Source: Pseudomonadota bacterium (GTDB taxonomy: Bacteria > Pseudomonadota > Gammaproteobacteria > Burkholderiales > Burkholderiaceae_D). From it: a DNA stretch of 36,011 nt. The notes beneath the pieces are model-generated. The model was not told the origin of the DNA. It was given only the letters and a program-made list of their open reading frames with translations, and made no database searches. The stretch covers positions 1 to 36,011 of the forward strand of contig JAKACN010000020.1 in assembly GCA_021821365.1 (NCBI GenBank), written 5' to 3'. This document shows positions 4,519 through 23,561 of the stretch, piece by piece. The position numbers and the translations under genes are program-made. Numbering within the stretch: the first letter of the stretch is position 1; every line of letters begins with the position of its first letter.

Positions 4519-4530
4519 TCGGATAGCAGC

Positions 4531-4556: not shown

Positions 4557-4571
4557 AAGTCTGACAATCCA

Positions 4572-4687
4572 GCGTGCGTGATTGCAAGACCTAGCCCCGT
4601 TCGGTGGCCCGCATGTTGGATTGCAAGACCTGACCCCATTTGCTCCGCACAATCATGCATGTTGGATTGCAAGACTTGACCCCACGC
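4572..4687. repeat. Three degenerate copies of a ~28-bp repeat
   Basis: Copies begin at 4572, 4611 and 4657 and share the core GATTGCAAGACCTGACCCC; the first has CTAGCCCC and the third ACTTGACCCC. Copies two and three also share the preceding GCATGTTG. Spacing is 39 and 46 bp, so this is not a regular array. The patch lies in the non-coding gap between the kinase module and the 3' end of the HEPN gene (4519-4728), where no gene is seen. It resembles scattered extragenic repeat families of Betaproteobacteria, but the family cannot be named from sequence alone. Confidence 0.8.
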
Positions 4688-4728
4688 ATCCTTCAGGACA
4701 GGATCAGAAATGACGTGCGGAGTGCATC

Positions 4729-5268
4729 CTACGCTTGCTTTTGGTGAGAGAATTTTTGTTTCAAATAATCAAGAAACTTTAGAGCACTTTGAAAAAGTGC
4801 ATAAAGGTCCTCAGAGGATTTTTCAGCAGAAAAAATAGCGTAGTTTTGATGGACAATATGGTTTCGCAGGCGGCCCAACTCTAAAAACGCTTTGATTGCC
4901 TCAGACAACTCGATGCTTTGCTTGAGATCCGCATCAACCCGTGCCTTAAATTCCTCACCGAATAGACCGAAGAATGAGTTCGCGTTTGTTCCTTTCTCCC
5001 AGTCGAAGAGAGTGTGATACTGGCGTTTGAGGGCCTTATTTCGAACAAATGAGGTGAGCGGCTCGCATCGATTACTTTGTGCGTCTGCATACTTACACAA
5101 CAAATCAGTTATTTCATTCTCAAAATAGCTCGCAGCAGCGAGCGCAAAGTTTTTTCGAAATGAATCCTCTACGTCTTGAAGAAACGAAATTTCTTTGCTT
5201 TTAGAAAGAAAGTCCTTGAGGGCTGCTTGACGCTTATAGAATTCTTCGACAACTGTGGTCATGGTCAA
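4729..5268 (-). CDS. HEPN-domain protein, probable RNase partner of DUF262
   Basis: A 179-residue, mostly helical protein with the HEPN signature R-x4-H at RNHIVH (residues 135-140), the active-site motif of HEPN ribonucleases. The N-terminal part (YKRQAALKDFLSKSKEISFL) and FALAAASYFENEI resemble the MAE_28990/RiboL-PSP type of HEPN nuclease, which is often found beside DUF262 genes. Its ATG overlaps the DUF262 stop by 4 bp (ATGA), so the two are made together. The pair is visibly more AT-rich than the flanking genes, which suggests acquisition. The likely role is abortive-infection-style RNA cleavage controlled by the DUF262 partner; the family link is by motif and context, the role is inference. 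Confidence 0.7.
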   Translation of the reverse strand: MTMTTVVEEFYKRQAALKDFLSKSKEISFLQDVEDSFRKNFALAAASYFENEITDLLCKYADAQSNRCEPLTSFVRNKALKRQYHTLFDWEKGTNANSFFGLFGEEFKARVDADLKQSIELSEAIKAFLELGRLRNHIVHQNYAIFSAEKSSEDLYALFQSALKFLDYLKQKFSHQKQA

Positions 5269-6428: not shown

Positions 6429-6438
6429 TTTTAGCTCC

Positions 6439-10865: not shown

Positions 10866-11285
10866 ATGACGATTAGACGCGACGACCTGGTGGCTGCGGC
10901 CTCCGTAGGCCTTTTGCAATACCGGCAGATCGATCCGCTGCTGGTATATCTCCTGCAGCGCGACGTGCGGCTCAAGCGCATGGCGCTGATCGCGCAGGCA
11001 CAGGCGCGGCAGCGCAGCGGGTTTCATGCCTTCCTGTCGAACGTGGCGGCACTGCTGGCGGTGATCACGGCTTCCCTGTTCGGCGTGCTGTTCACGACCC
11101 GCTCGGCACATGCGATGGGATTCGGGGCCATCGTGCTTTTCACGCTGCTCTACGGTTTCGGCGCACTCGCCCTTGCATTCTGGTTCAAGCAGCGCGGCTA
11201 CTGCGGACGATTCCGCGTGCTGTCGGCCTTGATTATGACGTCCGTGCCGCTGGCCGTGTTTGCGCTACAACAGGTCGCGAACTGA
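10866..11285 (+). CDS. Short membrane protein, truncated paralogue of the 9328-10407 protein
   Basis: 139 residues with AGGAG six bases before ATG 10866. It parallels the first 140 residues of the 359-residue protein upstream: MTIRRDDLVAAASVG against LTREDLQAAADAG, three membrane helices in the same spacing, and an ending VLSALIMTSVPLAVFALQQV against IFATLAIALAPLAVFALQHV. It then stops (TGA at 11283-11285) exactly where the longer protein goes on to its remaining helices. The stop is 24 bp from the convergent LytTR gene's end, so the missing part is not recoverable downstream. It could be a working half-length protein (good RBS, intact frame) or the stub of a duplicated gene. Confidence 0.65.
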   Translation: MTIRRDDLVAAASVGLLQYRQIDPLLVYLLQRDVRLKRMALIAQAQARQRSGFHAFLSNVAALLAVITASLFGVLFTTRSAHAMGFGAIVLFTLLYGFGALALAFWFKQRGYCGRFRVLSALIMTSVPLAVFALQQVAN

Positions 11286-11309: not shown

Positions 11310-12101
11310 TCACATCTGCTTGAACAGGTGCGCGAAGACTCTGCTCACGGCGAGGCATTCGGCGCGTCCGCGCAGCCTGACCGAGAGCTTGCCGGATTCA
11401 TCGCGAATCGCCGCTTCGATATGGCCGGCGTTGACGATCGTGCCGCGATGGATCTGCCAGAACTGATTGCGGTCCAGTTGCGGCAGCAATTCCTTCAGGC
11501 TGGTGCGAATCAGCGATTCGCTGTCGGCCGTTACCACGTTGACATATTTGTCCGCTGCCTCGAAGTACACCACATCCTCGACCGGAATCATGCGGATCTG
11601 GTTGCCGACCGCGGCGCGGATGATGGTCAGGCGTTCCGCAGCGACGGGGGCAGCCGGCACCAGCGCCCGCAATTGCCCGACGATGCGTTCGAGTTCATGG
11701 TTGCGATCATCGTCCCGCGCCAGCCGCGCCTTCAACCGTTCGACGGTCCGCGCCAGACGCGCATCGTTGACCGGTTTCAGCACATAGTCGGCCGCCGCCT
11801 GGTCGAATGCCTGCAGCGCGTATTCATCGTAGGCGGTGACGAACACCACCAGCGGAAAGGCGCGGTCGTCCGGCCATTCCTCGGCCAGTTCCTGCGCCGC
11901 CTCCAGCCCGGTCTTGCCGGGCATCTTGATGTCGAGGAACAGAATGTCCGGCCGCTGCGCCAGTGCTTCCTGCACGGCGGCCAGGCCGTTTTCCACCACG
12001 CTGCCGATCTGCAACTCCGGCCAGAGCCGCTGCAGCGCCTGCACCAGCGTATAGGCGAGGATGGGTTCGTCTTCGGCGACGAGGGCGCGGATGGTCGTCA
12101 T
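11310..12101 (-). CDS. LytTR-family response regulator
   Basis: 263 residues. Receiver domain at about 4-125: acidic pocket EDE (10-12), phospho-acceptor D57 in LFLDIKMPG, VTAYDEYALQAF and the K of VLKPVND. A linker leads to a LytTR DNA-binding domain (about 160-260: IRMIPVEDVVYFEAADKYVNVVT, LKELLPQLDRNQFWQIHRGTIVN). It is the output partner of the kinase encoded just upstream, whose stop overlaps this start by 4 bp (ATGA). LytTR regulators bind paired ~9-bp sites upstream of envelope or autolysis genes; the target is not visible here. With the transposon to the right removed, it would be the last gene of a four-gene operon. Confidence 0.93.
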   Translation of the reverse strand: MTTIRALVAEDEPILAYTLVQALQRLWPELQIGSVVENGLAAVQEALAQRPDILFLDIKMPGKTGLEAAQELAEEWPDDRAFPLVVFVTAYDEYALQAFDQAAADYVLKPVNDARLARTVERLKARLARDDDRNHELERIVGQLRALVPAAPVAAERLTIIRAAVGNQIRMIPVEDVVYFEAADKYVNVVTADSESLIRTSLKELLPQLDRNQFWQIHRGTIVNAGHIEAAIRDESGKLSVRLRGRAECLAVSRVFAHLFKQM

Positions 12102-13177
12102 AGCGGTAAAGTGATGCGCGCGATCACGCCGGACGGCGCGTTGGATTTCAGGGAGAACGCGGCGAGCGCGCCGTACAGCATCTGCAGCCGTTCGCGCACG
12201 TTCGCGACGCCGACGCAGGTGCCGGATGTTGCCGCGTCGACGTCCATGCCCAGGCCGGTATCGGCGACGGTCAGGTAAAGCGAATTGCCGTCGCGCTCGG
12301 CCTTGACGTCGATATGCCCGCCTTCAATCTTCGGTTCGATGCCGTGCTTGATCGCGTTTTCCACCAGCGGCTGCAGCAGCATCGGCGGAACCATTGAATT
12401 GCCCAATGCAGACGGCAGATGGAAGGCATACGACAGGCGCGATCCCATGCGGACCTTCATCAGCCCGAGGTAGGCGTCGAGCAGCGCGAACTCCTGCGCG
12501 AGCGAGGTCTTGTCGGTGCGCGACGCGGACAGCGTGGCGCGCAGATACTGGATCAACTGGTCGAGCATGTGCTGCGCGCGCGGCGGATCGACGGCGATCA
12601 GGCCCTGCAGGTTGGCGAGCGTATTGAACAGCATGTGCGGCTCGATCTGCGCCTGCAGCATCTGCAATTGCGCCTGCATCGCCTGTTTCTCGATGGCGGC
12701 GGCGCGCGCTTTCTCTGCTTCGGTCTCCGCTTTGAGGGTGGCCATACGTCCTCGACTCCAGAAGAACCAGATGATGAAAACGAATGTGACCCCGCTGCCG
12801 ATGAGCATGGCTGTTGCATGCCGAGATCGCTCGGCGTCGAAGACTGGCTCAGGTACGCCAAGGACAAAGGCCGCAATTTTGTAGCCGAGGTATTGAGCTA
12901 AAAAGAAGGACGCAAGCAGCAACGCGAAGAAAGGCAGCCTCGGCGGCGGACGTCGTTCGTGCCACAGCATGAGCCGAGCGCCGTCGATGAAGGTGACTGA
13001 CAAGGTTCCGATGCAGATGGAAGTCACCAGGTTGGCAAAGAAAGAATCTCCGGCGCGTACCACGTAGGTGACGAGAACCGCAATCACGAGGTTGAATACT
13101 TGTGTGATGGCGACATCAACGGCGAAACGACGCAGTCGCGGGTAGGTATAGCGGTTAACCGGAGACGCTTGAAGCAT
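12098..13177 (-). CDS. LytS/AlgZ-type membrane sensor histidine kinase
   Basis: 359 residues. Four hydrophobic helices lie in the first 140 residues (ITQVFNLVIAVLVTYVV, NLVTSICIGTLSVTFI, FFALLLASFFLAQYLG, MLIGSGVTFVFIIWFFW), then a coiled coil (150-178), the His_kinase box QIEPHMLFNTLANLQ with H181, and an HATPase domain (LLQPLVENAIKHGIEPK; DTGLGMDV). No extracytoplasmic domain of note, so it probably senses within the membrane. The start at 13177 has no strong Shine-Dalgarno; before the transposon inserted, the 2TM gene's stop codon lay 8 bp upstream, so translation was probably coupled to it. The insertion 48 bp upstream should have cut it off from its native promoter. Confidence 0.92.
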   Translation of the reverse strand: MLQASPVNRYTYPRLRRFAVDVAITQVFNLVIAVLVTYVVRAGDSFFANLVTSICIGTLSVTFIDGARLMLWHERRPPPRLPFFALLLASFFLAQYLGYKIAAFVLGVPEPVFDAERSRHATAMLIGSGVTFVFIIWFFWSRGRMATLKAETEAEKARAAAIEKQAMQAQLQMLQAQIEPHMLFNTLANLQGLIAVDPPRAQHMLDQLIQYLRATLSASRTDKTSLAQEFALLDAYLGLMKVRMGSRLSYAFHLPSALGNSMVPPMLLQPLVENAIKHGIEPKIEGGHIDVKAERDGNSLYLTVADTGLGMDVDAATSGTCVGVANVRERLQMLYGALAAFSLKSNAPSGVIARITLPL

Positions 13178-13224
13178 GTTGGATGTTATCGGTTGAGCTT
13201 GTTCAATTCATTGTCGATCATGCG

Positions 13225-13232
13225 TTGTTTCC
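13225..13232. repeat. Left target-site duplication TTGTTTCC
   Basis: Eight bases directly outside the left terminal inverted repeat, identical and in the same orientation as 22940-22947 outside the right one. An 8-bp duplication is what IS1595-family transposases produce. Confidence 0.9.
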
Positions 13233-13256
13233 CGGAATTATGTAGCAGCCGCACAA
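13233..13256 (+). repeat. Left terminal inverted repeat of the transposon
   Basis: Begins CGGAATTATGTAGCA and ends CCGCACAA. It matches the reverse complement of 22916-22939 at 23 of 24 positions (G/A difference at the sixteenth). Outer end is CGG. Similarity fades inward after CACAA. Confidence 0.9.
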
Positions 13257-13288
13257 AGCCTTTTGCTTCAACAACTTAGCCAAATCTC

Positions 13289-13471
13289 TTACTCAAGTTC
13301 AATATCAAGCGCGGCAAGCACGTCTTCAATTTCCGATGCAAGCGACGAATACGACATCGAATAAATTGGTGTTGGTGAGGCGGCATCGCTCAACATGCGC
13401 CTGGAACGCATCAACAGATCAGTCAAATATTGGGCCTGCTCTGCTGATAGTTGGCGAGGAATTGTATTCAT
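13289..13471 (-). CDS. Small hypothetical protein, last gene of the tcm operon
   Basis: 60 residues (MNTIPRQLSAEQAQYLTDLL... ending in DVLAALDIELE), probably two or three helices. It starts 4 bp after the exonuclease stop, on the same strand, with an AAGG-type ribosome site in the end of that gene, which supports it being real. No family is recognised. The acidic C-terminus and position could suit a small accessory or antitoxin-like partner, but nothing in the sequence shows that. Confidence 0.55.
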   Translation of the reverse strand: MNTIPRQLSAEQAQYLTDLLMRSRRMLSDAASPTPIYSMSYSSLASEIEDVLAALDIELE

Positions 13472-13475
13472 CAGT

Positions 13476-13967
13476 TTACCGAGCCTTTCTGAATTGCTTC
13501 AAATCGTTCTTGGCTTTCAACGGATCATAGGCATGCCGATTTGCCTTCGCATCATTGAGCGCATGATGATCTTTCAGGCCATGATCGATAAAAAACATTT
13601 GCAGCTTCACCGGATCGAGATGCGGGTAAATGTTCTGCCTGCCAAGCCAAGTCGGAATTTCATAATCCAAGGCCAAGCACAGCAATTGCCAGTCGCCGTT
13701 GAAATCGTAGCAGATCGTGGGCGATTTCCTGGCGAATGGGCGCAGCCATTGCAGCAGCCGTTCTTTCAATTCCGGTAGGGTGCAGTGCGCACCAGGCGCT
13801 TTGCCAAGCTGCGGCAAGACCGTCTTGATGACGAAATCGTTGCACTTCGCCTTGTTGACTGGAAGCTCCGCATAAAATTCATGCTGGCCGTCATCCGTCA
13901 CGAGACCGATGCTGATCAATTCCGTATCCGTGAAATCGGTGAACTCGGTATCGATGAAGATCAGCAT
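13476..13967 (-). CDS. DEDDh 3'-5' exonuclease (Rv2179c-like)
   Basis: 163 residues, a single RNase-T/Rv2179c-like fold. Exo I: IFIDTEFTD with D6 and E8; Exo II: ICYDFNGDWQLLCLAL; Exo III: HHALNDAKANRHAY, matching H-x-A-x-x-D. These four acidic residues and His form the two-metal site that removes nucleotides from 3' ends, RNA or DNA. It lies in an operon downstream of TcmP (14-bp gap) inside the transposon, so its probable job is nucleic-acid trimming in a defence or mobile-element function rather than housekeeping. Confidence 0.85.
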   Translation of the reverse strand: MLIFIDTEFTDFTDTELISIGLVTDDGQHEFYAELPVNKAKCNDFVIKTVLPQLGKAPGAHCTLPELKERLLQWLRPFARKSPTICYDFNGDWQLLCLALDYEIPTWLGRQNIYPHLDPVKLQMFFIDHGLKDHHALNDAKANRHAYDPLKAKNDLKQFRKAR

Positions 13968-13981
13968 GGCTGGGATCGCAT

Positions 13982-15247
13982 TCAGGTAAATAGCTTACGT
14001 TGTCGCGGTGGCAGGATACGATCCTCATCCTTGATCTGATTGGCGGATGTCTTATGCCGCCCATCTGGTGAAACGATGTCGATCTCCCCTTGCTTTGCGA
14101 GGCTGCCAAGCACTCCCTTGTAAATTCTTGCCGTGGCTGGAGAATCGTTACAGGTGGTTGCGTGCAAAGTCTCAAAGCTTTGCCCGTCTTCATTCGCATA
14201 GATCAAACGGGGAATATCAAGGTGCAGCTTTTCTTCGGTGCGCTTTCTCGCATCGTCGTCGAAGGTGTACCCAAGTTTCCCTTGTTGCGTAAACCGTTCG
14301 TCGGCGCTTGTGATATAGCCGATCTTGAACATGTCCAAGCCTTCGCCGCCGTAATGAATAAACGTATTGCTATGCTCCCAATGGACCTCTGTCATTACGT
14401 CACGCGCCTTCTGGTGCATCGAAAGATGCAGCAGCCAGAAATCACCATGCCCTTTAGCTGAACGAATAAAAAACGGGGTATGGAACCGCGACCCGGCTGA
14501 TCTGACGATATGCGGATAAAGTTGGCTCTGGATGTACGCACGCCAATCACGTTCGTTATTTTTGATGTCTTGCAGGCTCCGTCCTTGAAAGACATTCGGC
14601 AGGCCGATATTTTCCAATGGAGATCGCTCGCTTTTATCGCTCGCGTATGAGTTGAACGAATCGACGTTGAACGTCAGAATTACCTCAGCGCGTGGCAATG
14701 CCTGAAAGATTTTCGCAAGCAGAGACATCGGCACTTGCGTATAGCCGTACTGATCCAGAACGAAGATCGATCTGCCGCTGCGAGGCGTTTTCTTGTGGAC
14801 GTGCTCGATGATGTTATCGGCGTGCGTATTGAAATCCCCTTGGAGGAGCTGTACGTCCTTCCCCACGCGCAAGCCATAACCTTGTTCGTTGACAGTCTTT
14901 GCCAGATGGTTGGCCGCATCGCGGGACTTCTCGACGAAGATGTAATCAACATTAAAGCGAACCTTCTTGATTCGTTCCGAATGATTGATACGAGCCTCGG
15001 CCTCTTCCGCAGCCTGAAGACAAATGAAAGGGGAGCCGAGTATCAGTTCGCCCGTCGTGTTGTGCGTATACGCGCCACCCCCAGCGAAACCATCCACAAT
15101 GGTTAGGCGCAATTCCTCCTGGTGAGGCGAGCTGACGAGCGTAGGGAAGTAAGCGGATAAATAACTTCGGAGCAGGTTGTGCTTGGCGACGCTATGTTGT
15201 TCTAACTTCGCGGGTCCGTCTTTCCAATCATAATGCGACTTCGCCAT
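13982..15247 (-). CDS. tcmP: Three-Cys-motif partner protein TcmP
   Basis: 421 residues. The N-terminus (WKDGPAKLEQHSVAKHNLLRSYLSAYF) and LTIVDGFAGGGAY are characteristic of TcmP, a family named for its steady co-occurrence with three-Cys-motif proteins. The GFAGGG loop followed by VDYIFVEKS and a later IFVLDQYGYTQVP resembles a SAM-dependent methyltransferase-like Rossmann fold. It follows the three-Cys gene by 19 bp on the same strand, exactly the expected partnership. The start ATG at 15247 has GGGG five bases before it. Biochemical function of the family is unknown. Confidence 0.85.
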   Translation of the reverse strand: MAKSHYDWKDGPAKLEQHSVAKHNLLRSYLSAYFPTLVSSPHQEELRLTIVDGFAGGGAYTHNTTGELILGSPFICLQAAEEAEARINHSERIKKVRFNVDYIFVEKSRDAANHLAKTVNEQGYGLRVGKDVQLLQGDFNTHADNIIEHVHKKTPRSGRSIFVLDQYGYTQVPMSLLAKIFQALPRAEVILTFNVDSFNSYASDKSERSPLENIGLPNVFQGRSLQDIKNNERDWRAYIQSQLYPHIVRSAGSRFHTPFFIRSAKGHGDFWLLHLSMHQKARDVMTEVHWEHSNTFIHYGGEGLDMFKIGYITSADERFTQQGKLGYTFDDDARKRTEEKLHLDIPRLIYANEDGQSFETLHATTCNDSPATARIYKGVLGSLAKQGEIDIVSPDGRHKTSANQIKDEDRILPPRQRKLFT

Positions 15248-15266
15248 ATGCCCCCATGTTTATTAT

Positions 15267-16124
15267 TTATGCGACCATTGGAAACTCATCCCAAGTGGAG
15301 CCGCCCAGCACACGCCCGGATTTGGTCTTGCCGACTTTGACCATGCGAATCATTTCTCCCATTCGGCCGACCACCTCAATTCGCTGAGCACGCGCCGAAA
15401 TACCTTCCTTGATTATTTCTTCCGGCGCCCAATGCCCCCATTGCTTGAAGTGAAATGGTACACCAGCAGCACGGCATTGATCACGCAAACTTTCCGCCCA
15501 GATCGGGTTCATCGAACGTGCATGCGCACCGCTCTCGCCACCGGCAATGACCCAATTGATGCCTGAGCGGCGTGATTTCGGCTTCGCCAGCCATTGCGCG
15601 ATATCCAGCGGGCCAAGCAACGGTTCGGCAGAAACGAAGCGAACGACGACATCATGCGCCAACAGATGATCGACACGTTTCTCCAGCCAATTTTGTTTTT
15701 CCGTAGAAGTGCCAAGCCATATATTTCTCGGCCACTTTCCCTGCCAAGGAGCCAGCTTTTTGACGTGCTCGATTCGTTTTGTCAGCAGCAGCCAATCCAA
15801 ATGTGGCGTCGCCTCGATCAATCCCCACAGACGCTCACGCGAAGCATTCAAATCCTTGCGATTTTCAAACACGTCAGCCATTGAGGCGCAGAATACCCGT
15901 CGGCGCACACCGTCGGCAGCAGCTTCCTTGTCCCACTTGATTGGCTCCTGCCAATGCGCGTCTGTGAAGAATCGCCGCTCGGCCTTGCTACCCCATATAT
16001 CCGCACCCAGGCGCTTTGCCCAGGATTCGGCGTAGCAGAACTTGCAGGCTGGCGACACTCGAACACAACCCCACCACGGATTGAAGGTGTGGTGCGTCCA
16101 CTCGATTTTGCTTTCCTTGCCCAT
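15267..16124 (-). CDS. Three-Cys-motif protein, DUF5131 (phage Gp37/Gp68 family)
   Basis: 285 residues from the second of two adjacent ATGs (16124), which sits six bases after AGGAG; the frame is open further upstream but begins in the operator region. SKIEWTHHTFNPWWGC leads into the three cysteines C20, C27 and C30 (C-x6-C-x2-C followed by Y), the family hallmark. The fold is related to radical-SAM/photolyase-like TIM barrels and the Cys cluster may bind iron-sulfur; LLLTKRIEHV, IWLGTSTEKQ and GGESGAHARSM are the other conserved blocks. First gene of an operon with TcmP, the exonuclease and a small ORF; divergent from an HTH regulator. Family certain, function unknown. Confidence 0.88.
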   Translation of the reverse strand: MGKESKIEWTHHTFNPWWGCVRVSPACKFCYAESWAKRLGADIWGSKAERRFFTDAHWQEPIKWDKEAAADGVRRRVFCASMADVFENRKDLNASRERLWGLIEATPHLDWLLLTKRIEHVKKLAPWQGKWPRNIWLGTSTEKQNWLEKRVDHLLAHDVVVRFVSAEPLLGPLDIAQWLAKPKSRRSGINWVIAGGESGAHARSMNPIWAESLRDQCRAAGVPFHFKQWGHWAPEEIIKEGISARAQRIEVVGRMGEMIRMVKVGKTKSGRVLGGSTWDEFPMVA

Positions 16125-16170
16125 CATGCTCTCCTGATCGACATCATACCTTGCATTATAGATATTGCAC

Positions 16171-16200
16171 TTATGCATGTAAAGCATATACACTGCATAA
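16171..16200. promoter_or_regulatory. Nested palindrome, likely operator of the HTH gene and tcm operon
   Basis: TTATGCA (16171-16177) pairs with TGCATAA (16194-16200); just inside them TGTA (16178-16181) pairs with TACA (16189-16192), so the two arms are nested and off centre by one base. It lies between the divergent starts at 16124 and 16225. The obvious candidate binder is the HTH protein encoded at 16225, acting on both promoters. Confidence 0.55.
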
Positions 16201-16224
16201 ATTGTGAGAATTTAGACCAATATC

Positions 16225-16518
16225 ATGGCTTTATCCCCCAACGAAATCGTGCGGAAAGCATGGAAGCAAACCGGCTTGAATCAAAGCGAGTTTGCCTCTA
16301 AGCACGGCATTACTCAATACAACCTGTCGCGCTATGTAAATAAGAAGGTGAAACCGCCCGAGGAATTGCTTATGCAGTGTATGCATATTTTGGGCATGAT
16401 TAAGCAGGACGACATTAGCCCTCAAGAATTATCGGATTTGATTCGGAAGAAATTATCCCGTCCTGAGCAAGCGGTGGTGCGCCGCGCTGTTTATGACTTG
16501 CTTTCCAATTTTTCTTAA
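16225..16518 (+). CDS. Small helix-turn-helix (XRE-like) regulator
   Basis: 97 residues. The first half is a lambda-repressor-type HTH: EIVRKAWKQTGLNQSEFASKHGITQYNLSRYVNKK, followed by a fourth helix (EELLMQCMHILGMI). The second half (SPQELSDLIRKKLSRPEQAVVRRAVYDLLSNF) is helical and probably a dimerisation part. It is the only rightward gene in the left cargo block, divergent from the DUF5131-TcmP-exonuclease operon, with a nested palindrome in between; it most likely represses that operon and itself. No strong Shine-Dalgarno is seen before the ATG at 16225 (AATATC), so expression may be low or leaderless. Confidence 0.8.
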   Translation: MALSPNEIVRKAWKQTGLNQSEFASKHGITQYNLSRYVNKKVKPPEELLMQCMHILGMIKQDDISPQELSDLIRKKLSRPEQAVVRRAVYDLLSNFS

Positions 16519-16553
16519 GCGGACTCGTGTATTGAGCTAACGCGCCAGCCCTT

Positions 16554-16751
16554 TTAATTTTCAGAATCTCGGCGCGACTGGCGCTCCGCATTCACCATTT
16601 CCATGAACCCGTTCACAAAGGCGGCGTAGGCTTGCGTGCCAGGCGAATAGCCTTCCTGGAGCGCCTTATTGCCCGCCTGTTCAGCGGTATCCCCCACTTG
16701 GTAGAGCGCTTGGGCTTTCATCCATGCCATATCCGCCGCCGTCATTTGCAT
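16554..16751 (-). CDS. Small hypothetical protein at the end of the restriction operon
   Basis: 65 residues, helical (ADMAWMKAQALYQVGDTAEQAGNKALQEGY, then AFVNGFMEMVNAERQ), with GGGAGAG five bases before the ATG at 16751. It follows the VbhA-like gene by 37 bp on the same strand. No family is recognised. Its alternation of short helices and charged C-terminus would suit a small binding protein; nothing more can be said. Confidence 0.6.
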   Translation of the reverse strand: MQMTAADMAWMKAQALYQVGDTAEQAGNKALQEGYSPGTQAYAAFVNGFMEMVNAERQSRRDSEN

Positions 16752-16788
16752 TTATTCTCTCCCGATGCGCCGATGGCGCTCTCGTTGG

Positions 16789-17100
16789 TCAATATCCACA
16801 GCCGAGTTCGGCCATGCGCAGCGTCGTAATGTCCGCTTCGGCCTGCTTCAAGCGGGCGCTGTCAGTGATGCCGAGCTTGTTGGGGCTTGCGGCGTTGTCG
16901 CTCGCCGCCGCGCTTTTCTCAAGTTCTTGGTGATGCTGGATGACCAAAGATACCGCTTCATCCGCCGTCCAGTGCCCCACAATCCATTGATCGAAGATCG
17001 ACAGGCCGAATGCGCTTGGCTCAAAGCCGCTCAATGCATTATTAGCCTTGGCCTGCTCAATTGCTTTGCGCCGTAGCGCCGCATCGCTCTCATTGGTCAT
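16789..17100 (-). CDS. VbhA-like antitoxin-domain protein without a Fic partner
   Basis: 103 residues. RRKAIEQAKANNALSGFEPS followed by FDQWIVGHWTADEAVSLVIQHH matches the VbhA antitoxin domain layout: inhibitory helix, then a small helical bundle. VbhA holds the Fic AMP-transferase VbhT inactive with an S/T-x3-E-G/N motif. Here the matching spot reads N20-N-A-L-S24-G25, so the inhibitory Glu is a Ser. No Fic protein (HPFxxGNG) is encoded anywhere in the window. The C-terminal half (residues 55-103) is charged and helical. It sits 29 bp behind the restriction-methylase on the same strand, so it may now serve that system or be a remnant. Family call is moderate. Confidence 0.55.
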   Translation of the reverse strand: MTNESDAALRRKAIEQAKANNALSGFEPSAFGLSIFDQWIVGHWTADEAVSLVIQHHQELEKSAAASDNAASPNKLGITDSARLKQAEADITTLRMAELGCGY

Positions 17101-17129
17101 GATGATCCTTTGCGATGTGGATTATAAAG

Positions 17130-20100
17130 TCACGCGGCAAGCTTGCCGGATTTGATCGGCGGATGATTGATCCGCTCAAACAGCGTTTCGAGTTGATCGG
17201 AAATCTCTTGCCTGGTCTGCTTGATTTCCGCAAGCAGGCCCGCTACGCGCTGCTCCTCTTGGATGAGCAATGCAAGCGCCTTTTCCGCGAATTCTGGCTT
17301 GTCAGGAATGTACGGCTTTGCCAGCTCAATCTCGCCAAGCGTTGCCCCTTCGGGGAAGGTCAAGAATTGGCGGCGCAGCCATTCGATTGCCAGTTCCGGC
17401 TCAGAGGCGGCGATTTGCGCGACTTCCTGCTTGCCAGAGAATAGCCGGTGGCCGCTGCGCACCAGCTTATGCACCTTCGCCGCTGGCACGGAAATATGCA
17501 GTCCCCATTTGACTTGGGCGCGATCAAGCGCAAGCGTGGGAATGTTCGCCGGAATTTGCGCAGGCGCTTGCGCCATGTTGTCGTCGATCTTCCAGCCTGC
17601 TTTGCGCAACGGCAGCAGCATCTTTTGAATGCCGCTTGCCCGTTGCGCCAGGTGTGCGATTGAGGCCATGACTGCCGGATCGTCTGGAATGGGAATCGAA
17701 ATCTGCCGAAGGTCGTCAGGCTGCAAGCGTCCGGCAATGGCGCTGCGGTTGACGCCATCCAGCAAGGCGCGCATCTGCTGGCTATTCAGGAAGGCCAGCA
17801 CGTACCAAGGATCGATCTTGGCCGAATCCGCCTCCAGCATTTCGCGGATCGGTGCGCGATGGTCAAGCTGATTGCGAATCGATTTGTTGTCCACGCCCGC
17901 GAGATGACACCAGCGCATCAGCAAAAACACGGAGTGGTTGCACTTCAAGAATCCGGCATCGTCCCAAGTGCCATCGTCGTAAGCGAAGCCACCGAATTCC
18001 GCGACCATCAGCTTGGGGCGGTCATACAACTCAGGGAATGTCGGGCGGCTCAATTTTGCGGGAACCCGCGTACTGGAACCATATTCAAGATACCGGACGT
18101 TTCTAATGCCGAAATAATCGACATCCTTACTTCCGGCGAAGGCGGCGCAATGTACGCTGTCCGATGCGTCGGAAATCAGGTCTTCCATTTTGAACGCGCC
18201 CTTATTGGTCTTTTCGTCGGCGTTCAGAACCATTCCCTTGGAAATATAAAACACATCTTCAAGTGGAACCGCATTCACGTTCTGCGCCAAGGTTAGCGTC
18301 GGCAATTCCTGCCTGAACACGTTTTCCCTGTAGTGAGATTGCCGCAAGTTCTGGCTTCGAGCCTGCGACAGACTGCCCCACTTGGGCGCGGTCTCGTGCC
18401 AGAAGCGTTCCGTATGCGTGTGGCCGGTCGGCGCTCGGTTCGTGGCAACGGTGATGGTGTTTTGCACCATTGCGTCCTCGAACAATTTCACGCCAGGGAA
18501 GAAATGCACTTCATCGACGGTGGCGTGATTGACGAGCAATTCCCGCAAGCCATCGCAATAGGGCACCGTCTCGATGGCATTGCTGGTGATGATCGACATC
18601 TTTCCGGCGTTGCCATGCTCGGATTCTTGCTTGAGCAGGTTGAAACTTGCCGCAACGAACGGCACGAACAAATCCCACTTGAGAACCATCGTGCTGCGCA
18701 CGGCGTCGCTTGGATACTCGCGCTTGATGCGGTCGCGATAGGAAAGCATCGCGTCGCTTTCGTTCGCCTTCACATACGGCGGATTGCCGACGACGAAATC
18801 GAATTTATCCCGCCATTGCCCGATGCCCGCCTTGATTTGATCTTCCTTCGGTAGATCTTCATCGGGGAATGGCAATGTTCCGGCCTGACTTGCCAGTGTA
18901 TCGGCACTGAATGAGAGGCTATCGGAGTTGTAGATATGGAAGCGTTCAATAGTCGCAGGCTGATCGCCCTTGTGCGCAATGCTGAACAGGTCGATCACCT
19001 GAATCAGCAAATTGGTTTCTGCCAATGAGCATGCAAAAGGATTCAGATCGACGCCATGCAAGCAATCCCTGATTTCGTTCAGAACGGTTTGCACTTCCTC
19101 GGCGGGTACATGGCTATGGCCGCGCTTTTTCCAGTATTCCCGATAGGCGCTGACCAGGCGCGTTGCTGCTTCGACGAGGAAGCCGCCAGAGCCACACGAT
19201 AAGTCAATCAGCTTCTTGCCGATGATGTCGGTTCCTTTGTAGCCGATACGGTCAAGCATGAACGACACGACTTCGGGCGGCGTGAAATACATGCCGCTTT
19301 CATGCTTATGCTTAGCTTCGACGTACTGGTTATAGACCGTGCCGATGATGTCACGGTTAATGTCGCTTAGGTCGAAACCAGCAAGCTTATGAAGCACCCG
19401 TACCACGGCATTCCGGTCGGGTATGTACCAATCAAGAACGGTGCGCTCCGCGAAGAAATGCGCGTAGATATGCTGCGCAGAGGTATACGCCAATTCCAGC
19501 AGAAAGTCGGCGCTGCGGCCCATCGCGTGCTCCAGGTAGTGCGACTCCACTTGCCTGAACCAAAGCGACACGCCGCCATTGGTAAACATCCGGTTGACCA
19601 GCCCCTTATCTTCCATGATGCGCACCAGGAGGATACGGATGATGACCAGGTACGCCGTCTGCGCCAGAAATTCGCGCCGCAACAACTTGGCGTCGTCGGA
19701 CTGAAAGACGAGGGAAGCGGTCTTCTCTTTCCAGGTCTCGATATGGTGATAGACCTTGATGCTCTCCTTGTGCTGCGCCTCCAGCTTGGAGAGGTAACGG
19801 TAGCGCTTTTCGGTGTAAGCGCGAATCCGGCTCATCAAGGTGTAGATTGGGTCGCGCTCTGTGCCTTTGCCAGATTTGATTGCATGCAGTGCATACAAAC
19901 GTCGTTCAATTTGCTTCAATTCGCCCATCAAGACTTCGCCGCGCATGATCTTGCGCAGCAAACTTTCATCGTATTCCTTGGTCTCTTTGTCGGCGGCCAC
20001 CATCAATTGCATGGCGGTTTGAATGAGGTTGTCTTCCTGCTCTTGGAGCGTCGTGTTCTCGGTTGGTATCTTCCTCGCAGCATCCTTGTACGCATTGAAA

Positions 20101-20980
20101 TCCGTCTCAATGGCGGCAAGCTGCGCGTCGGCGTCATCCTCGAATTCCGAAATCAGTTCCTTGATAGCTTCGGTAAGTTGATCGGCATTGTCATGGGTAA
20201 CGGGAACGATGCGGAGACGGCAGTAGGCGTTCGTCCAGGTTTTGCCATTGGGCTTGTGCGGCTTATTGTTGCCATTCTCGTTTTGCAGCGTCAGATCGTC
20301 GATGAGATTGGATAGGCCCGCGAAACTGCCGCGCTGGAAGCGCCGCCATAGTGCGGAAAACCGCGCCATGTAGCCGCATATCTCAAGCGCATCGATCTTG
20401 GATTTGCCGTTGGCGAGTAAATCGCCGCCTGTCCACGCATGAACCGCCTGTGCCAAGGGAATCTCGATGGCGGGCGTGTGCAGACCGCCTTCCATCTGAT
20501 CGTAGACGAGAATTGCATGGCCGTTGACGAGCATGCCGCGTGATGCGCCGAATTGCGTCATGTAGCCTTGCAGTTGCGGACGGTGATCGCGAAGGCCTAG
20601 CGCGGTCGTGTTCTTGTCTTCGACGATGAAGCATGCCTGGCGCGGGTATTCCTTTATCTTGACGACGAAATCCGGGCGCTGCCGACCGGCCTGGGCGTTG
20701 TATTCGTATTCTTGTTCGCTGTAGCCTAGCGCTTCAATCAATGAAGCGGTGATGCGCATGTCAACGATACTGGCTTCGTCGCTCGTGCGTTGTTCCGGTG
20801 GCGTGGAGAGGTAGGCGTTTAGATTGCCCTCGGTGCTGAAACCGGCACTGGCGAGATGACCAAGGAAGCGCTCGAGGAACTTTTCAAACGAGGCATCTGG
20901 CGAAGGCTGCTGGCTGCTGGCTGCTGGCTGCTGGCTGCTGGCTGCTGGGTCATGCTGTCGCTATTCTCATTCTTGTCCAT
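17130..20980 (-). pseudogene. Type IIG (Eco57I-like) restriction-methylase, phase-OFF by heptamer repeat
   Basis: One protein combining cleavage and N6-adenine methylation. Counting from the Met at 20759: nuclease motif D30 ... E47-x-K49 (RPDF, FIVEDKN); a long helical linker; methylase motif GMYFTPPEVV, motif I DLSCGSGGF (about 19176-19206), HGVDLNPFACSLAETN, catalytic NPPY (about 18775-18790); then a C-terminal target-recognition region ending in ERINHPP. The true start is ATG 20980 (GGAGG seven bases ahead, ATGA overlap with the DUF6471 gene), but that frame stops at 20819 after 53 residues. Between, residues such as FEKFLERFLGHLASAGFS and LSTPPEQRTSDEAS are encoded in the main frame with no start codon of their own. 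The frames meet at six copies of a 7-bp repeat (20905-20946). Seven or four copies would join them (about 1285 residues with seven). A start at ATG 20759 is possible but has no ribosome site and would lose the conserved lead. Confidence 0.88.
20905..20948. repeat. Heptanucleotide repeat (6 copies), candidate phase-variation tract
   Basis: Six perfect head-to-tail copies of GGCTGCT (AGCAGCC on the coding strand) plus two further matching bases. As 7 is not a multiple of 3, each gain or loss shifts the restriction-methylase frame. The repeat reads Gln-Gln-Pro-Ala-Ala-Ser-Ser in every frame and has no stop in the coding direction, so it is tolerated as a linker. It starts 10 codons after the initiation codon. 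Copy numbers 4, 7 and 10 are in frame, 5, 6 and 8 are not. Confidence 0.95.
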
Positions 20981-21207
20981 CAGTTGTCCTCCAGCCGAAC
21001 CGTCTCGCGGCCAAGCGCTTTCATGCACTGCATAAAAAATACGAAGCTAAACGTGCCGCGATTGACCTTGGCGGCGATTCCCTTATAGGACTCTTCTACG
21101 CCAATTTCTTTGAGCTTGGCATTCAATTCTTCATAGCCAACGCCAGCGCGTGCCAATTCGGCTTTCAGCATCTTGGCGGCATGCTTGCTCCATTCATCGG
21201 GCGTCAT
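20980..21207 (-). CDS. DUF6471 small protein, probable controller of the restriction gene
   Basis: 75 residues from ATG 21207 (GGAG eight bases ahead); the open frame continues upstream through the operator region but has no ribosome site. DEWSKHAAKMLKAELARAGVGYEELNAKLKEIG, then YKGIAAKVNRGTFSFVFFMQCMKALG, is the DUF6471 pattern, which resembles a compact HTH. Its stop overlaps the restriction gene's start (ATGA), so it leads that operon. Restriction systems often carry a small controller protein in this place; two related 17- to 22-bp sites lie upstream. The family is recognised by motif, the controller role is inferred. Confidence 0.75.
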   Translation of the reverse strand: MTPDEWSKHAAKMLKAELARAGVGYEELNAKLKEIGVEESYKGIAAKVNRGTFSFVFFMQCMKALGRETVRLEDN

Positions 21208-21277
21208 GTTCTTACTCCGTGTCGTTAGTTGGCGCAGGATAGCATAAGGGTGCAGCTTTCTCTGCATTTTTAGCGAT

Positions 21278-21342
21278 ATATCTACAAATATGCATTGCAT
21301 CGATCTGCATTTATGCTAAAATATCTGCATATATGTAGATAT
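21278..21342. promoter_or_regulatory. Pair of related operator-like sites between DUF6471 and transposase genes
   Basis: Site B, 21321-21342, is a 22-bp palindrome with one mismatched pair (ATATCTGCATA / TATGTAGATAT). Site A starts at 21278 (ATATCTACAAATATGCA) and matches the reverse complement of site B at 16 of its first 17 positions. They lie between divergent starts at 21207 and 21355 in an AT-rich stretch full of TGCAT. Site B is only 13 bp ahead of the transposase ATG, so a bound protein would block transposase expression; site A is placed for the restriction operon. Confidence 0.6.
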
Positions 21343-21354
21343 TGCGAGGCTGCG

Positions 21355-22422
21355 ATGACCCACAAACAACACTTCCTGCTTTCCGCCAAGGCTCGCACGC
21401 TGTCCGTGCGCCAAGTCTTCGAGTTGACCGAGCAGCAGGCATTCGAGACGTTCCGGGAAGTGCGTTGGGGCGGTGGCGAGGCCGTGACGTGTCCGACATG
21501 CGGCACCATTGGCAAGCACTACTTCATCCGCGTGCGCCGCCAATGGCGCTGCAAGGACTGCAACCATACGTTCTCGGTCACGTCCGGCACCGTGTTTGCC
21601 TTCCACAAGCTGCCGCTCAAGGTATATCTGGCGGCGATCGCCATCTACACCAATGCGGTCAAAGGCATTTCGGCCTTGCAGCTTGGCCGCGATCTCGGCG
21701 TGCAGTACAAGACGGCTTTCGTGCTGGCGCATAAAATCCGCGAGTCCTTGATGGAACAGCGCGACGAAGCGCCGCTGTCCGGCGAAGTGCAGATCGATGG
21801 TGCGTATGTGAATGGGCATATCCGCCCGAAGAACAAGAAGGAGGATCGCATCGACCGCCGCTTGGCGATTCATCAGCGGCCAGGGAAGCGCTGCGTGCTG
21901 GTGTTCCGGCAGAAAGCGATTCCGGCTGCATTGCAGGCCGGTAGCGCCGCGAACGATAGCCGGAATGACTCAGCCATCGTCGGCGCAAATAAAACGCTCA
22001 CGTTCATCGTCAAAAGCGAGAATCAGGCTGACATCGTGAGTCTTGCGGATCGTGCCGTGAAGCGCGGCAGCATCGTATGCGCCGATGAGAATTCCGCCTA
22101 CGATCCTTTGCATGCGCGGTACGACACGCGCCGCGTGAATCATCAAGTCGAGTATGCCGCCGATGACGGCACCACGAACAATCTGGCCGAGAGCTACTTT
22201 GCGCGTTTCCGCCGCATGCAGTACGGCCAGATGCATAAATTCGGCAATCTGTATCTCGATAACTACGCCAACGAAGCGGCGTACCGTGAAGATACGCGCC
22301 GCTGGGCGAATGGAAAAATCTTTACCGACATCCTCGCCAAGTGCATGCGCACCCGCACGCATCATGACTGGTGCGGCTACTGGCAAGGGAACAAGCGCCA
22401 GGCCGAGCGGCTGGCCGCGTGA
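21355..22422 (+). CDS. IS1595-family (ISXO2-like) transposase
   Basis: 355 residues from ATG 21355 (GAGG about six bases ahead). N-terminal zinc ribbon: CPTCG ... WRCKDCNHTFSVTSGTVF. Then a helical segment (KLPLKVYLAAIAIYTNAVKGISALQLGRDLGVQYKTAF) and the DDE catalytic core: VQIDGAYVNGH (first Asp), IVCADENSAYD (second Asp) and NNLAESYFARFRRMQYGQ (Glu). All parts are intact and the length is normal, so it is probably active. The nearest inverted-repeat ends are not around this gene alone: the matching pair lies at 13233 and 22939, so the gene mobilises the whole 9.7-kb unit. Its promoter region holds an operator-like palindrome. Confidence 0.93.
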   Translation: MTHKQHFLLSAKARTLSVRQVFELTEQQAFETFREVRWGGGEAVTCPTCGTIGKHYFIRVRRQWRCKDCNHTFSVTSGTVFAFHKLPLKVYLAAIAIYTNAVKGISALQLGRDLGVQYKTAFVLAHKIRESLMEQRDEAPLSGEVQIDGAYVNGHIRPKNKKEDRIDRRLAIHQRPGKRCVLVFRQKAIPAALQAGSAANDSRNDSAIVGANKTLTFIVKSENQADIVSLADRAVKRGSIVCADENSAYDPLHARYDTRRVNHQVEYAADDGTTNNLAESYFARFRRMQYGQMHKFGNLYLDNYANEAAYREDTRRWANGKIFTDILAKCMRTRTHHDWCGYWQGNKRQAERLAA

Positions 22423-22425
22423 GAA

Positions 22426-22863
22426 TCAAACCAGCTTCCACTTCAAAGGTTCGCCGTCTCTCGCCACTTTCTTGACGGCTTTCTTCTTCTCCAGCCGGTG
22501 CAGCACGGCGAGGATATTCTTCTGGATGCGTGCAGCAACAGCGGCGTCCGGCGCAATGTCTTTGCGCTGCATGAGCGCGTCGGTAATCTCCCGGCTGCAA
22601 AGCAAGCCCTTTGCATCCCGCATGGTCTCCAACGTCATGCGCTGCGCTTCGCCTTGCGCGAAATATTGGTTGCGCTTACGCTTGACGCGAGATTTCACCT
22701 TGCGCAGATCGACTTCCGGCGCGAACAGTTTTATTGTGCAGTCCAGGTGCGATAATGCCGCGTGCAGGCGCTTGATTTCAGCTTGGTAGGATTCGAGTTG
22801 GCCGGTAATCTCGCCGCGCTTGGCGACCAGGCCGGATACGACATGTGATTGGGCCACGTGCAT
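22426..22863 (-). CDS. Hypothetical protein beside the transposase
   Basis: 145 residues, convergent with the transposase (3 bp between stops). The first 45 residues are a coiled coil (GEITGQLESYQAEIKRLHAALSHLDCTI); a basic segment follows (KVKSRVKRKRNQY), then a probable winged-helix region (MTLETMRDAKGLLCSREITDALMQRK ... NILAVLHRLEKKKAVKKV). It looks like a DNA-binding protein. The ATG at 22863 has GGAG only one base before it; GTG at 22857, seven bases after GGAG, may be the true start. It lies inside the right inverted repeat, so it travels with the element, either as a transposition helper or a passenger. Family not named. Confidence 0.7.
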   Translation of the reverse strand: MHVAQSHVVSGLVAKRGEITGQLESYQAEIKRLHAALSHLDCTIKLFAPEVDLRKVKSRVKRKRNQYFAQGEAQRMTLETMRDAKGLLCSREITDALMQRKDIAPDAAVAARIQKNILAVLHRLEKKKAVKKVARDGEPLKWKLV

Positions 22864-22903
22864 TCTCCATCTTGTTGATCATGGAGAAATGGTAGGCGTT
22901 AGG

Positions 22904-23170
22904 TCAGGCGGAAGCTTGTGCGGTTGCTACATAATTCCGTTGTTTCCAGCCGGATTGCGTTTCCTTCAACAGTACGGCGGAGGCATGGAATAGTAACCCG
23001 ATTCCCCAGCCGAACAATGGTGCGAGCGACCACCATTTTCCCGGATGGATAAAAAGGTTCAGCAGGACCAAGCTGGCATTGACGACAACGTACACTGCGG
23101 CATGAGTGTAAAGACCAATCTTGCGCTCGACGCGGCGCTTCGCTTCGCGATAGATGAAAGTGCTTTCCAT
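22904..23170 (-). CDS. 2TM-domain membrane protein, C-terminus replaced by the transposon
   Basis: 88 residues with a GAGGAGA ribosome site. Basic N-terminus (REAKRRVERKIG) and two membrane helices (HAAVYVVVNASLVLLNLFI and LAPLFGWGIGLLFHASAVLL) match the 2TM domain, which commonly accompanies LytS-type kinases. The last eleven residues, RNYVATAQASA, come mostly from the transposon's right inverted repeat. Without the element, translation would read W-K-Q-RMIDNELNKLNR and stop 8 bp before the kinase gene. So the host gene lost twelve residues and gained eleven foreign ones; the membrane part is intact and may still work. Confidence 0.85.
   Translation of the reverse strand: MESTFIYREAKRRVERKIGLYTHAAVYVVVNASLVLLNLFIHPGKWWSLAPLFGWGIGLLFHASAVLLKETQSGWKQRNYVATAQASA
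22916..22939 (-). repeat. Right terminal inverted repeat of the transposon
   Basis: Starts TTGTGCGGTTGC and ends ACATAATTCCG; 23 of 24 positions match the reverse complement of 13233-13256. It lies inside the coding end of the 2TM gene, encoding RNYVATAQ on the minus strand. Confidence 0.9.
22940..22947. repeat. Right target-site duplication TTGTTTCC
   Basis: Directly outside the right inverted repeat and identical to 13225-13232. On the coding strand it is GGAAACAA, within codons for W-K-Q of the 2TM gene. Confidence 0.9.
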
Positions 23171-23180
23171 GATGTTCTCC

Positions 23181-23561
23181 TCAGATCAGACCAACGGCGT
23201 GCCATACCAGATGCCCGAGCAGGCGTTGCGGCAGGAAGGTGAAAGCGCCGGCGACAAGCAGGCCAATATAGGCATTTGTCATGCCGCGACGGTGCGCCCG
23301 GATGCGGCCCTTGACGGCCGCGAACACCGACGCACTCACCGCCAGCAGTGTGAAAACGGACAGCAGGTGTATCCAGGAGAAATGCCCGCTGGTCCTGATG
23401 CCGAAGGACACCAGCGCTGCGGTAATCATCAGCACGACCCATGTGCGGCCGAATGCGCGATGCAGGGACGTGCCCTTTTTCATGCCCAGGGCGACGCCGC
23501 CGATGACGATGGCACCGATGGCGCTCAGCATGTGGATGAGGATGACGGGCGTGAATTCCAT
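23181..23561 (-). CDS. DUF2306-like four-helix membrane protein
   Basis: 126 residues with four hydrophobic helices: VILIHMLSAIGAIVIGGVAL, TWVVLMITAALVSFGI, WIHLLSVFTLLAVSASVFAAV and YIGLLVAGAFTFLPQRLLG. KKGTSLHRAFGRTWV between the first two and the His residues in the helices fit the DUF2306 pattern. AGGAG lies seven bases before ATG 23561. It precedes the 2TM gene by 10 bp on the same strand, and with the transposon removed would head an operon with 2TM, the LytS-type kinase and LytTR regulator. It may be a membrane partner of that sensor. Function unknown. Confidence 0.8.
   Translation of the reverse strand: MEFTPVILIHMLSAIGAIVIGGVALGMKKGTSLHRAFGRTWVVLMITAALVSFGIRTSGHFSWIHLLSVFTLLAVSASVFAAVKGRIRAHRRGMTNAYIGLLVAGAFTFLPQRLLGHLVWHAVGLI

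Follow-up and report, generated by a model that had tools for sequence, protein, structure and literature searches.

A probable IS1595-family transposon with a constant core and an exchangeable defence-type cassette in a Burkholderiales genome

The question of how defence systems pass from one bacterium to another is an active one, and many such systems lie in islands with no visible vehicle. The locus described here raises that question in a compact form: do the restriction gene and its companions at positions 13225-22947 belong to a single transposon, and how would such an element come by its cargo? The locus lies in contig JAKACN010000020.1 (assembly GCA_021821365.1) of a Pseudomonadota bacterium (GTDB Gammaproteobacteria, Burkholderiales, Burkholderiaceae_D), and the whole stretch that was analysed, called the window below, comprises 36,011 nt (positions 1-36,011, forward strand). 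The joint best explanation of the results is that 13225-22947 is one complete IS1595 transposon, built of a constant core and an exchangeable defence cassette; we give this reading a probability of roughly 0.86.

Ends of the element and the uninterrupted site

The boundaries, and the host genes on either side of them, are as follows.

12098..13177, minus strand: host sensor-kinase-like gene, next in the split operon, adjoining the 2TM-like gene in 9/9 matched relatives
13225..13232, no strand: target-site duplication, left copy, TTGTTTCC, read from the sequence and present as a single copy in the uninterrupted relative L045
13233..13256, plus strand: left terminal inverted repeat (cargo end), with 0-7 mismatches to the ends of other elements
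22916..22939, minus strand: right terminal inverted repeat (transposase end), from an inverted-repeat search
22940..22947, no strand: target-site duplication, right copy, TTGTTTCC, read from the sequence
22948..23170, minus strand: host 2TM-like gene, 5' part, whose last codons lie left of the element (from excision and relatives)

The terminal repeats are 24 nt long and matched at 23 of 24 positions (96% complementary). They lie, with the 8-bp direct repeat outside them, exactly where a preliminary description of this DNA, made from the sequence alone, had placed them, and the element between the duplications measures 9,707 bp. Across 40 first-order Markov shuffles of 13000-23200 no 24-mer inverted repeat exceeded 22 matches (mean of the best, 19.0), against 23 in the real sequence, and the chance of an exact 8-mer at both outer sides is about 4^-8. 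The end pattern occurs at 21 places in 13 of 399 genomes of the order, and a reversed control pattern at 1 place (1 genome). A chance inverted repeat is ruled out by the shuffles and by this control. Within the host assembly the end sequence is found twice, once in each orientation.

Independent evidence for an insertion comes from the interrupted operon. Excision in silico, leaving a single TTGTTTCC, restores an 89-amino-acid (aa) 2TM-like frame in front of the kinase and response-regulator genes; the element severs the final 12 codons of this gene. The rejoined protein is present in 10 of 15 genus genomes (the host's own included), and in all 9 relatives that have it the gene directly adjoins the kinase and regulator genes with no insert; the 5 genomes with no match to the protein are uninformative either way. 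In the nearest relative, L045, CTGGAAACAACGCATGAT runs unbroken across the junction at the DNA level and the 8 bp are present once. Both the rebuilt host frame and the alignment of strains without the element, which the preliminary description had named as its first check, thus came out in favour of its ends. Base composition differs as well, with a G+C content of 0.50-0.57 in the element bins versus 0.60-0.65 at 7-13 and 23-36 kb.

An alternative model is that a short IS1595 insertion sequence landed beside or within a defence island, the distant left repeat being a solo end or a remnant and the cargo never having moved. Short elements of this kind do exist: the bare 1.7-kb element L014 (duplication GGAAGAAC) demonstrates that the core alone is a sufficient insertion sequence, and some of the elements described below have defence genes in their flanks. 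However, it is the far ends that the 8-bp duplication flanks, and the relatives lack the whole 9.7 kb and not merely the core. Furthermore, L027 carries nearly the same cargo within the same ends but with a different duplication, and no second right-type end was found in the host's own genome. The empty site leads us to reject a simple insertion sequence beside an island, which we consider very improbable.

Two other features of the window were recorded. A 26-bp stretch of the host 2TM-like gene, 22986-23011 (minus strand, GGCTGGGGAATCGGGTTACTATTCCA), is shared without change by 7 of 9 genus relatives, and an eighth has one mismatch, despite protein identities of only about 50-65%; this is unusual conservation at synonymous sites. 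The region 4001-6500 falls to a G+C content of 0.42 (bin 5001-6000) versus 0.60-0.65 further right, and the open reading frames (ORFs) at 4729-5268 and 5265-6428 may be another acquired segment.

The constant core and the cassette behind it

Two genes adjoin the right end of the element.

21355..22422, plus strand: IS1595-family transposase, 355 aa, open frame (Pfam, NCBIfam and conserved residues)
22426..22863, minus strand: core accessory protein, a long helix followed by a winged helix (structural model and recurrence)

The Pfam scan covered 10 window proteins. The transposase matches Pfam DDE_Tnp_IS1595 (E=4.4e-44) and NCBIfam IS1595 (3.1e-37), both above the curated cut-off, and has an N-terminal zinc ribbon (Pfam Zn_ribbon_IS1595, 3.6e-15). 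Residues D148, D244 and E279, which we take to be catalytic, and C46, C49, C66 and C69, presumably zinc residues, are invariant among 22 aligned transposases. The transposase that had been described as intact is indeed a full-length open frame with its family match and invariant motifs, and from its sequence it would still be expected to work. The accessory gene had been overlooked; it is part of the transposase core, not of the cargo. Its product has no match in Pfam, PADLOC or NCBIfam. It gave 41 ORF matches in the loci searched, lies beside the transposase in nearly every element, and is duplicated in L020, L021 and L061-L063. The structural model shows a 46-residue helix and then a winged helix (pLDDT 87.4); its fold matches are weak, all above E 0.001, the best (E 5.9e-3) being to winged-helix DNA-binding domains. 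We take the protein for a transposition helper. Neither a relaxase or mobilization protein nor a Tn7-type transposition protein was matched by Pfam among the scanned window proteins (an oriT without a relaxase was not sought), and on this gene content we reject a Tn7-like element or one mobilizable by its own genes.

The IS1595 family duplicates 8 bp of its target. Elements were treated as delimited when both ends were present together with a flanking duplication of 7/8 or 8/8, and 18 such elements were assembled from loci of a genome-contig scan, whole-genome stretches and plasmid records. The duplication is perfect in 16 (the window, L014, L020, L022, L026, L027, L029, L030, L031, L034, L037, L039 and L061-L064) and 7/8 in two (L013 and L015/L016), in agreement with the 8-bp rule that the preliminary description had invoked. 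Four loci with both ends fall outside this set: L024 (6/8), L033 (5/8), L036 (no duplication) and L028, whose ends are those of its contig. The contig scan itself gave 26 loci, of which 10 are among the 18; the others include these four, 7 that are one-ended and 4 with no end, and one of the 26, L025, is on the same contig as L063. The same ends, with 8-bp duplications, thus recur near IS1595 transposases elsewhere, as a proposed search had anticipated.

By record titles the 26 loci are nearly all from Beta- and Gammaproteobacteria (Herminiimonas, Undibacterium, Methylomonas, Nitrosomonas), with single records titled Anaerolineales and Synechococcales. Relatives of the transposase were detected in 9 of 399 genomes of the order (E up to 1e-60) and in 2 of 369 of the class, the host's own included (E up to 1e-90). 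Among viral contigs the exact end pattern was found in 3 stretches, and scans for the transposase and for the cargo protein TcmP confirmed no relative there; L097 490-2125, an IMG/VR contig found by the end pattern, has an element end and a transposase and accessory gene of this group at the contig edge. The delimited elements range from 1,691 bp (L014) to 15,396 bp (L061). L014 consists of the transposase and accessory gene only, inserted between two pieces annotated as DUF2254. The contig of L028 (1-5119) starts and ends exactly at the two inverted repeats, as expected of a multi-copy element in an assembly graph or of a circular form. In one genome (G313) two different elements, L062 (3911-3918) and L064 (16304-16311), occupy the same base in the loop of a repeated stem-loop, GTTACCTTTCTT-GGCAAGAC-AAGAAAGGTAAC, and face opposite ways; L061 and L063 occupy similar stem-loop sites, as judged by eye. 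A target preference for REP-like repeats is possible.

Comparison of these elements separates a constant part from a variable one. The constant part, about 1.56 kb, comprises the transposase, the accessory protein and one end. Between the base that precedes the transposase ATG and the outer edge of the right repeat, L027 and L029 share about 90% identity, save for a 138-bp patch, and they have no similarity elsewhere except for one terminal repeat; the first carries a type IIG/TcmP set and the second a HindV-like system. (The unaligned patch, 11020-11157, lies at the 3' end of the accessory gene, which encodes the winged helix, and is 90% identical on both sides.) L018 and L019 likewise share 91.8% identity over a stretch that begins six bases ahead of the ATG and reaches the end, and are unlike upstream of it. 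The converse case is provided by the window and L027, whose transposases fall into different, well-supported clades despite cargo shared at up to 93%. The L027 element, from Herminiimonas sp. CN, has much the same cargo at another site, with the duplication GATCTCCT: its DUF5131 protein is 93% identical to that of the window, the helix-turn-helix (HTH) protein 92%, TcmP 88%, and the restriction gene and exonuclease 71%. At the DNA level the two elements are 74-85% identical at 14125-16524 and mostly 57-81% elsewhere. L027 also has, at 5136-5627, a second copy of the DEDDh exonuclease (42% identical to that of the window) where the window has its VbhA-like and 65-aa genes.

The exchanged part extends up to the transposase start. 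Among 23 loci the small regulator gene that diverges from the transposase is DUF6471-like in 14 (the window included) and of another HTH type in 5. The promoters resemble one another by regulator type and not by transposase kinship: that of L029 is closest to that of L030 (score 60) and far from that of L027 (11). This agreement was equalled in 1 of 5000 label permutations, and therefore the regulator and its operator belong to the exchangeable part. The material upstream of the transposase start, that is, regulator, promoter and defence genes, changes as a block. We infer that co-resident elements exchange cassettes by recombining at the inverted repeat and close to the transposase start.

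Alternatively, the element could be an old, immobile remnant kept for its cargo, with cassettes turned over by host recombination and not by transposition. The single copy in the host fits this model, and the frameshifted transposase of the L002/L015 relative shows that decay does happen. The window transposase is nevertheless open and keeps its invariant motifs, and its flanking duplication is perfect. The duplications of other elements differ in sequence, arguing for separate insertions. An immobile remnant therefore seems rather improbable beside a transposon with an exchangeable cassette.

Cargo genes and tandem repeats

The cassette of the window contains the following features.

13289..13471, minus strand: 60-aa ORF, weak and unassigned (ORF list)
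13476..13967, minus strand: DEDDh-type 3'-5' exonuclease-like gene (PADLOC DEDDh, 2e-5)
13982..15247, minus strand: TcmP, three-Cys-motif partner, with a methyltransferase-like domain and a GMT-type winged helix (NCBIfam TIGR04474, 1.1e-69)
15267..16124, minus strand: DUF5131 three-Cys-motif protein (Pfam, 1e-80; start taken from relatives, the listed ORF running to 16193)
16225..16518, plus strand: small HTH regulator, divergent from DUF5131 (Pfam HTH_3, 4.4e-5)
16554..16751, minus strand: 65-aa ORF (ORF list)
16789..17100, minus strand: VbhA-antitoxin-like small protein (Pfam VbhA, 6.6e-8)
17130..20980, minus strand: type IIG-like restriction-methyltransferase, with its body at 17130-20759 and an N-terminus across a 7-bp repeat (Pfam, PADLOC and frames)
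20905..20948, no strand: heptanucleotide tandem repeat GGCTGCT, 6.3 copies, a putative phase-variation tract (repeat search)
20980..21207, minus strand: DUF6471 regulator, divergent from the transposase (Pfam, 3.5e-26)
21278..21342, no strand: inverted repeat 21278-21294 / 21326-21342 between regulator and transposase, a putative operator (inverted-repeat search)

The cargo names given in the preliminary description were upheld by the family scans. The restriction gene has an Eco57I-type N6-adenine methyltransferase domain of the kind found in type IIG enzymes (Pfam Eco57I 1.8e-18, N6_Mtase 1.2e-13), with NPPY at residue 659, counted from 20759. Counted in the same way, PD at 29-30 and E47-x-K49 are kept between the window and L027, and no Pfam nuclease family was matched. 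In PADLOC its best match is PglX (9.8e-28), followed by type IIG (1.2e-20).

The start of this gene had been placed at 20759, and the tandem repeat there had been missed. Because of this repeat, the gene probably starts at 20980, where an ATG overlaps the DUF6471 stop codon (TGATG) and reads into the repeat. Upstream of its body the restriction gene has an open frame through the repeat as well, but not the frame of this ATG, so that start and body are out of frame in the assembly. L027 has TGCTGGT x 14.7 at the same place between DUF6471 and restriction gene. A non-triplet repeat between start and body, with the body frame open up to it, is the arrangement of a phase-variable gene, and the type IIG-like gene looks phase-variable, presumably switching by repeat slippage. 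The repeat could be an artefact of assembly or annotation, the enzyme starting at 20759 after all: short-read assemblers do miscount tandem repeats, and 20759 is an ATG. However, upstream of 20759 the frame continues open for another 201 nt and resembles that of L027 (FEKFLERFLGHLASAGFSTEGNLNAYL in the window, FESFLTSFIGELASDHFSTDGCLASYL in L027), L027 has no ATG at the matching codon, and in L088 the frame runs intact through 28.5 copies of a 4-bp unit. We regard an artefact as improbable.

The arrays of related elements extend this result. In 23 loci, non-triplet arrays with units of 4-12 bp and at least 4 copies number 7 in the elements (168,173 bp) and 0 in the flanks (270,136 bp). Restriction or methyltransferase genes begin at six of them (window, L027, L034, L061, L024 and L088); in each case the frame of the gene body continues open as far as the array or through it, and L088 alone is in frame as assembled. 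No gene of this kind goes with the seventh, in L020. The array units are of 4, 5 and 7 bp and are spread across several enzyme types; that of L061 (6943-7274) comprises 47.4 copies of 7-bp CCAGCAG before a type III methyltransferase gene.

Cargo of defence type (restriction, SspBCDE or MkoC-like) was found in 12 of the 18 elements, so that much of what other elements carry is defence-like, an outcome in favour of the preliminary description. A type IIG-like gene is present in the window, L027, L030, L034, L063 and L015/L016 (there with a specificity subunit), the L027 gene being assigned by its similarity to that of the window and not by a family scan. L029 has a HindV-like type II system, L062 a XamI-like type II enzyme and a WYL-domain protein, L061 a type III system, and L020 a GmrSD/HNH enzyme, which PADLOC places among the type II restriction enzymes. 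L026 carries a complete SspBCDE set and L064 a 1,734-aa MkoC-like (Mokosh-like) protein. Two of the four loci outside the 18 also have defence-type genes (L024, methyltransferase-Mrr; L033, type III) and two do not (L028, trypsin-like; L036, P63C). As a control that is free of family libraries, the amino-methyltransferase motif [ND]PP[YFW] was counted: it occurs in 8 of 61 cargo ORFs (each from a different element) versus 2 of 170 flank ORFs (Fisher P=0.0005).

The second operon of the cassette encodes DUF5131, TcmP and the exonuclease. DUF5131 recurs in the window, L027, L061, L063 and the one-ended L088 (cargo present, no transposase match), and TcmP in the same set except L063. DUF5131 matches PADLOC PDC-M41B (2.8e-56) and PDC-M30B (8.8e-55), keeps a C-x6-C-x2-C motif in 5 of 5 cases and bears a weak likeness to radical-SAM families; against PDB sequences it gave only a chance-level match. 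TcmP matches Pfam GMT-wHTH (3.9e-12) and PADLOC PDC-M30A (4.5e-21) and had no match among PDB sequences; its structural model is poor (pLDDT 66.8), the nearest structure being RlmJ with a TM-score of 0.33 of the query. The exonuclease-like protein falls below cut-off with NCBIfam RNase AS (2.6e-8) and Pfam Rv2179c-like (2.1e-4), and has weak matches to 3'-5' exoribonucleases among PDB sequences. We take this operon for a second candidate defence system acting on nucleic acid, and predict, with somewhat better than even confidence, that it modifies and degrades foreign nucleic acid. Predicted sigma-70 sites (5, shuffle mean 7.0) and terminators (8 versus 12.7) are fewer than in shuffles and were given no weight; read-through of transcription from the cargo into the host kinase gene is a guess.

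Several points weigh against a mobile element devoted to defence. The transposase is single-copy in the host genome, with no sign of recent movement there. In four of the 18 elements no gene of defence type was recognised: L014 is without cargo, L031 and L037 have small ORFs without a Pfam match, and L022 (7923-9133) carries a PAAR protein and an amidase, which are inter-bacterial weapon-like and not phage defence. Two more are weak candidates, namely L039, with an HTH/ImmA-like protein that matches PD-Lambda-2_B, and L013, an element on a Methylobacterium plasmid whose nucleotide-cyclase and NUDIX protein (14198-15268) is possibly a signalling-type defence. The count of 12 of 18 omits one-ended loci, and a stricter methyltransferase pattern gave 3 of 61 cargo versus 1 of 170 flank ORFs (P=0.057, not significant). 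A PADLOC scan of 132 of the 139 flank ORFs returned type I restriction proteins among its matches, and therefore some elements sit in or near defence regions; its output lists families and not proteins, and so gives no clean enrichment figure. For the window's restriction gene, the best match in both PADLOC and NCBIfam is PglX, the latter at 87.9 bits against a cut-off of 400, and no BREX partners were matched among the scanned window proteins. The label permutations on regulator class and promoter ignore kinship. Lastly, draft assemblies can miscount repeat lengths, which makes the off state unsure.

The cargo may also serve the element itself, with restriction-modification acting as an addiction or maintenance module that punishes loss of the transposon. 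Such addiction is described for integrative elements (PMC5704250), and restriction genes are present in many of the 18 cargoes (window, L027, L030, L034, L063, L015/L016, L029, L062, L061 and L020). However, the SspBCDE set of L026 and the MkoC-like gene of L064 are not known as classical addiction modules, and a phase-variable enzyme that is able to be off makes a poor one. Addiction is compatible with defence and does not exclude it; as the account of this cargo it is unlikely, although less so than the other alternatives above. With these points weighed, we lean towards a distinct IS1595 lineage dedicated to carrying defence cassettes that are interchangeable and often phase-variable, a lineage in which the swapped regulator and operator put transposition under the control of the carried module.

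A model for the carrier can be put together as follows. The transposase and its helper would cut and insert the element through the 24-bp ends, leaving 8-bp duplications. The DUF6471 regulator, which diverges from the transposase gene, would control it by repressing the transposase promoter along with its own operon. The cassette would run from the transposase start codon to the left inverted repeat, and include the regulator, the shared promoter and operator, and the defence genes read leftward. The restriction gene would be translated behind the regulator, with repeat slippage toggling it on and off, and an enzyme that is off on arrival would let the element enter a new host. DUF5131, TcmP and the exonuclease would form a second operon under their own regulator. 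The inverted repeat and the conserved transposase start would supply two short homologies for cassette exchange. The cargo as a whole would be expected to protect against phages.

Relation to known mobile elements and defence systems

A small vehicle with sharp, searchable ends allows its cargo to be delimited to the base, unlike a diffuse island. The ends offer a practical route to nominate defence genes, such as the unassigned cargo of L061, L062, L064, L028 and others; if the family is indeed a carrier, unknown genes between such ends are candidate new defence systems. DUF5131/TcmP stands out as cargo that recurs beside various types of restriction enzyme, and the exchange of cassettes on a transposon becomes testable. 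How a one-chain restriction enzyme enters a host with unmodified DNA is a known difficulty; a phase-variable enzyme carried by a mobile element suggests an answer, since it could arrive switched off.

In phasevarions, a methyltransferase gene has a non-triplet tandem repeat directly behind its start codon. The arrangement here differs in that the repeat is on a transposon, accompanies several enzyme types, and has units of 4, 5 and 7 bp.

The DUF5131/TcmP pair resembles the PADLOC candidates PDC-M30 and PDC-M41, which combine DUF5131 with a TcmP-like partner, and both window proteins match both candidates. Unlike those candidates, the pair here is carried by a transposon and accompanied by a DEDDh exonuclease and an HTH regulator; functions are putative in both. 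A further parallel is Sinorhizobium meliloti SMa2243, which is annotated TcmP and listed beside hna (SMa2245) (PMC12445080). Joint action of Hna with this neighbour is not stated in the accessible passages of that article, and no Hna-like gene was matched in the window.

With Tn7-like transposons the present family shares the role of a vehicle for many kinds of defence. Innate immune systems are carried by 26% of delimited Tn7-like transposons according to PMC8649781; the 12 of 18 found here was obtained by different methods and from a far smaller sample. Unlike those elements, the window has no Tn7-type proteins among its scanned genes, and the element is smaller.

The closest relatives in kind are the IS1595 elements with passenger genes, some of them mobilizable (ISNha5, MTnSag1/tISSag10, tISCpe8). 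As far as PMC11891212 and PMC5704250 describe them, these tIS elements also have an IS1595 transposase and inverted repeats of about 25 bp, and their passengers are transcription regulators, lincomycin resistance and mobilization genes. A search of the open-licence part of PubMed Central, which leaves subscription literature uncovered, found, among the titles listed, no work joining IS1595 with defence cargo or describing cassette exchange. The novelty suggested by the preliminary description holds in part: passenger genes on IS1595 were already described (PMC11891212, PMC5704250), as was defence cargo on Tn7-like transposons. What sets the present elements apart from the tIS elements is 5-15 kb of restriction or other defence genes that change block-wise behind a constant core, and it is this cargo and its exchange on IS1595 that are new.

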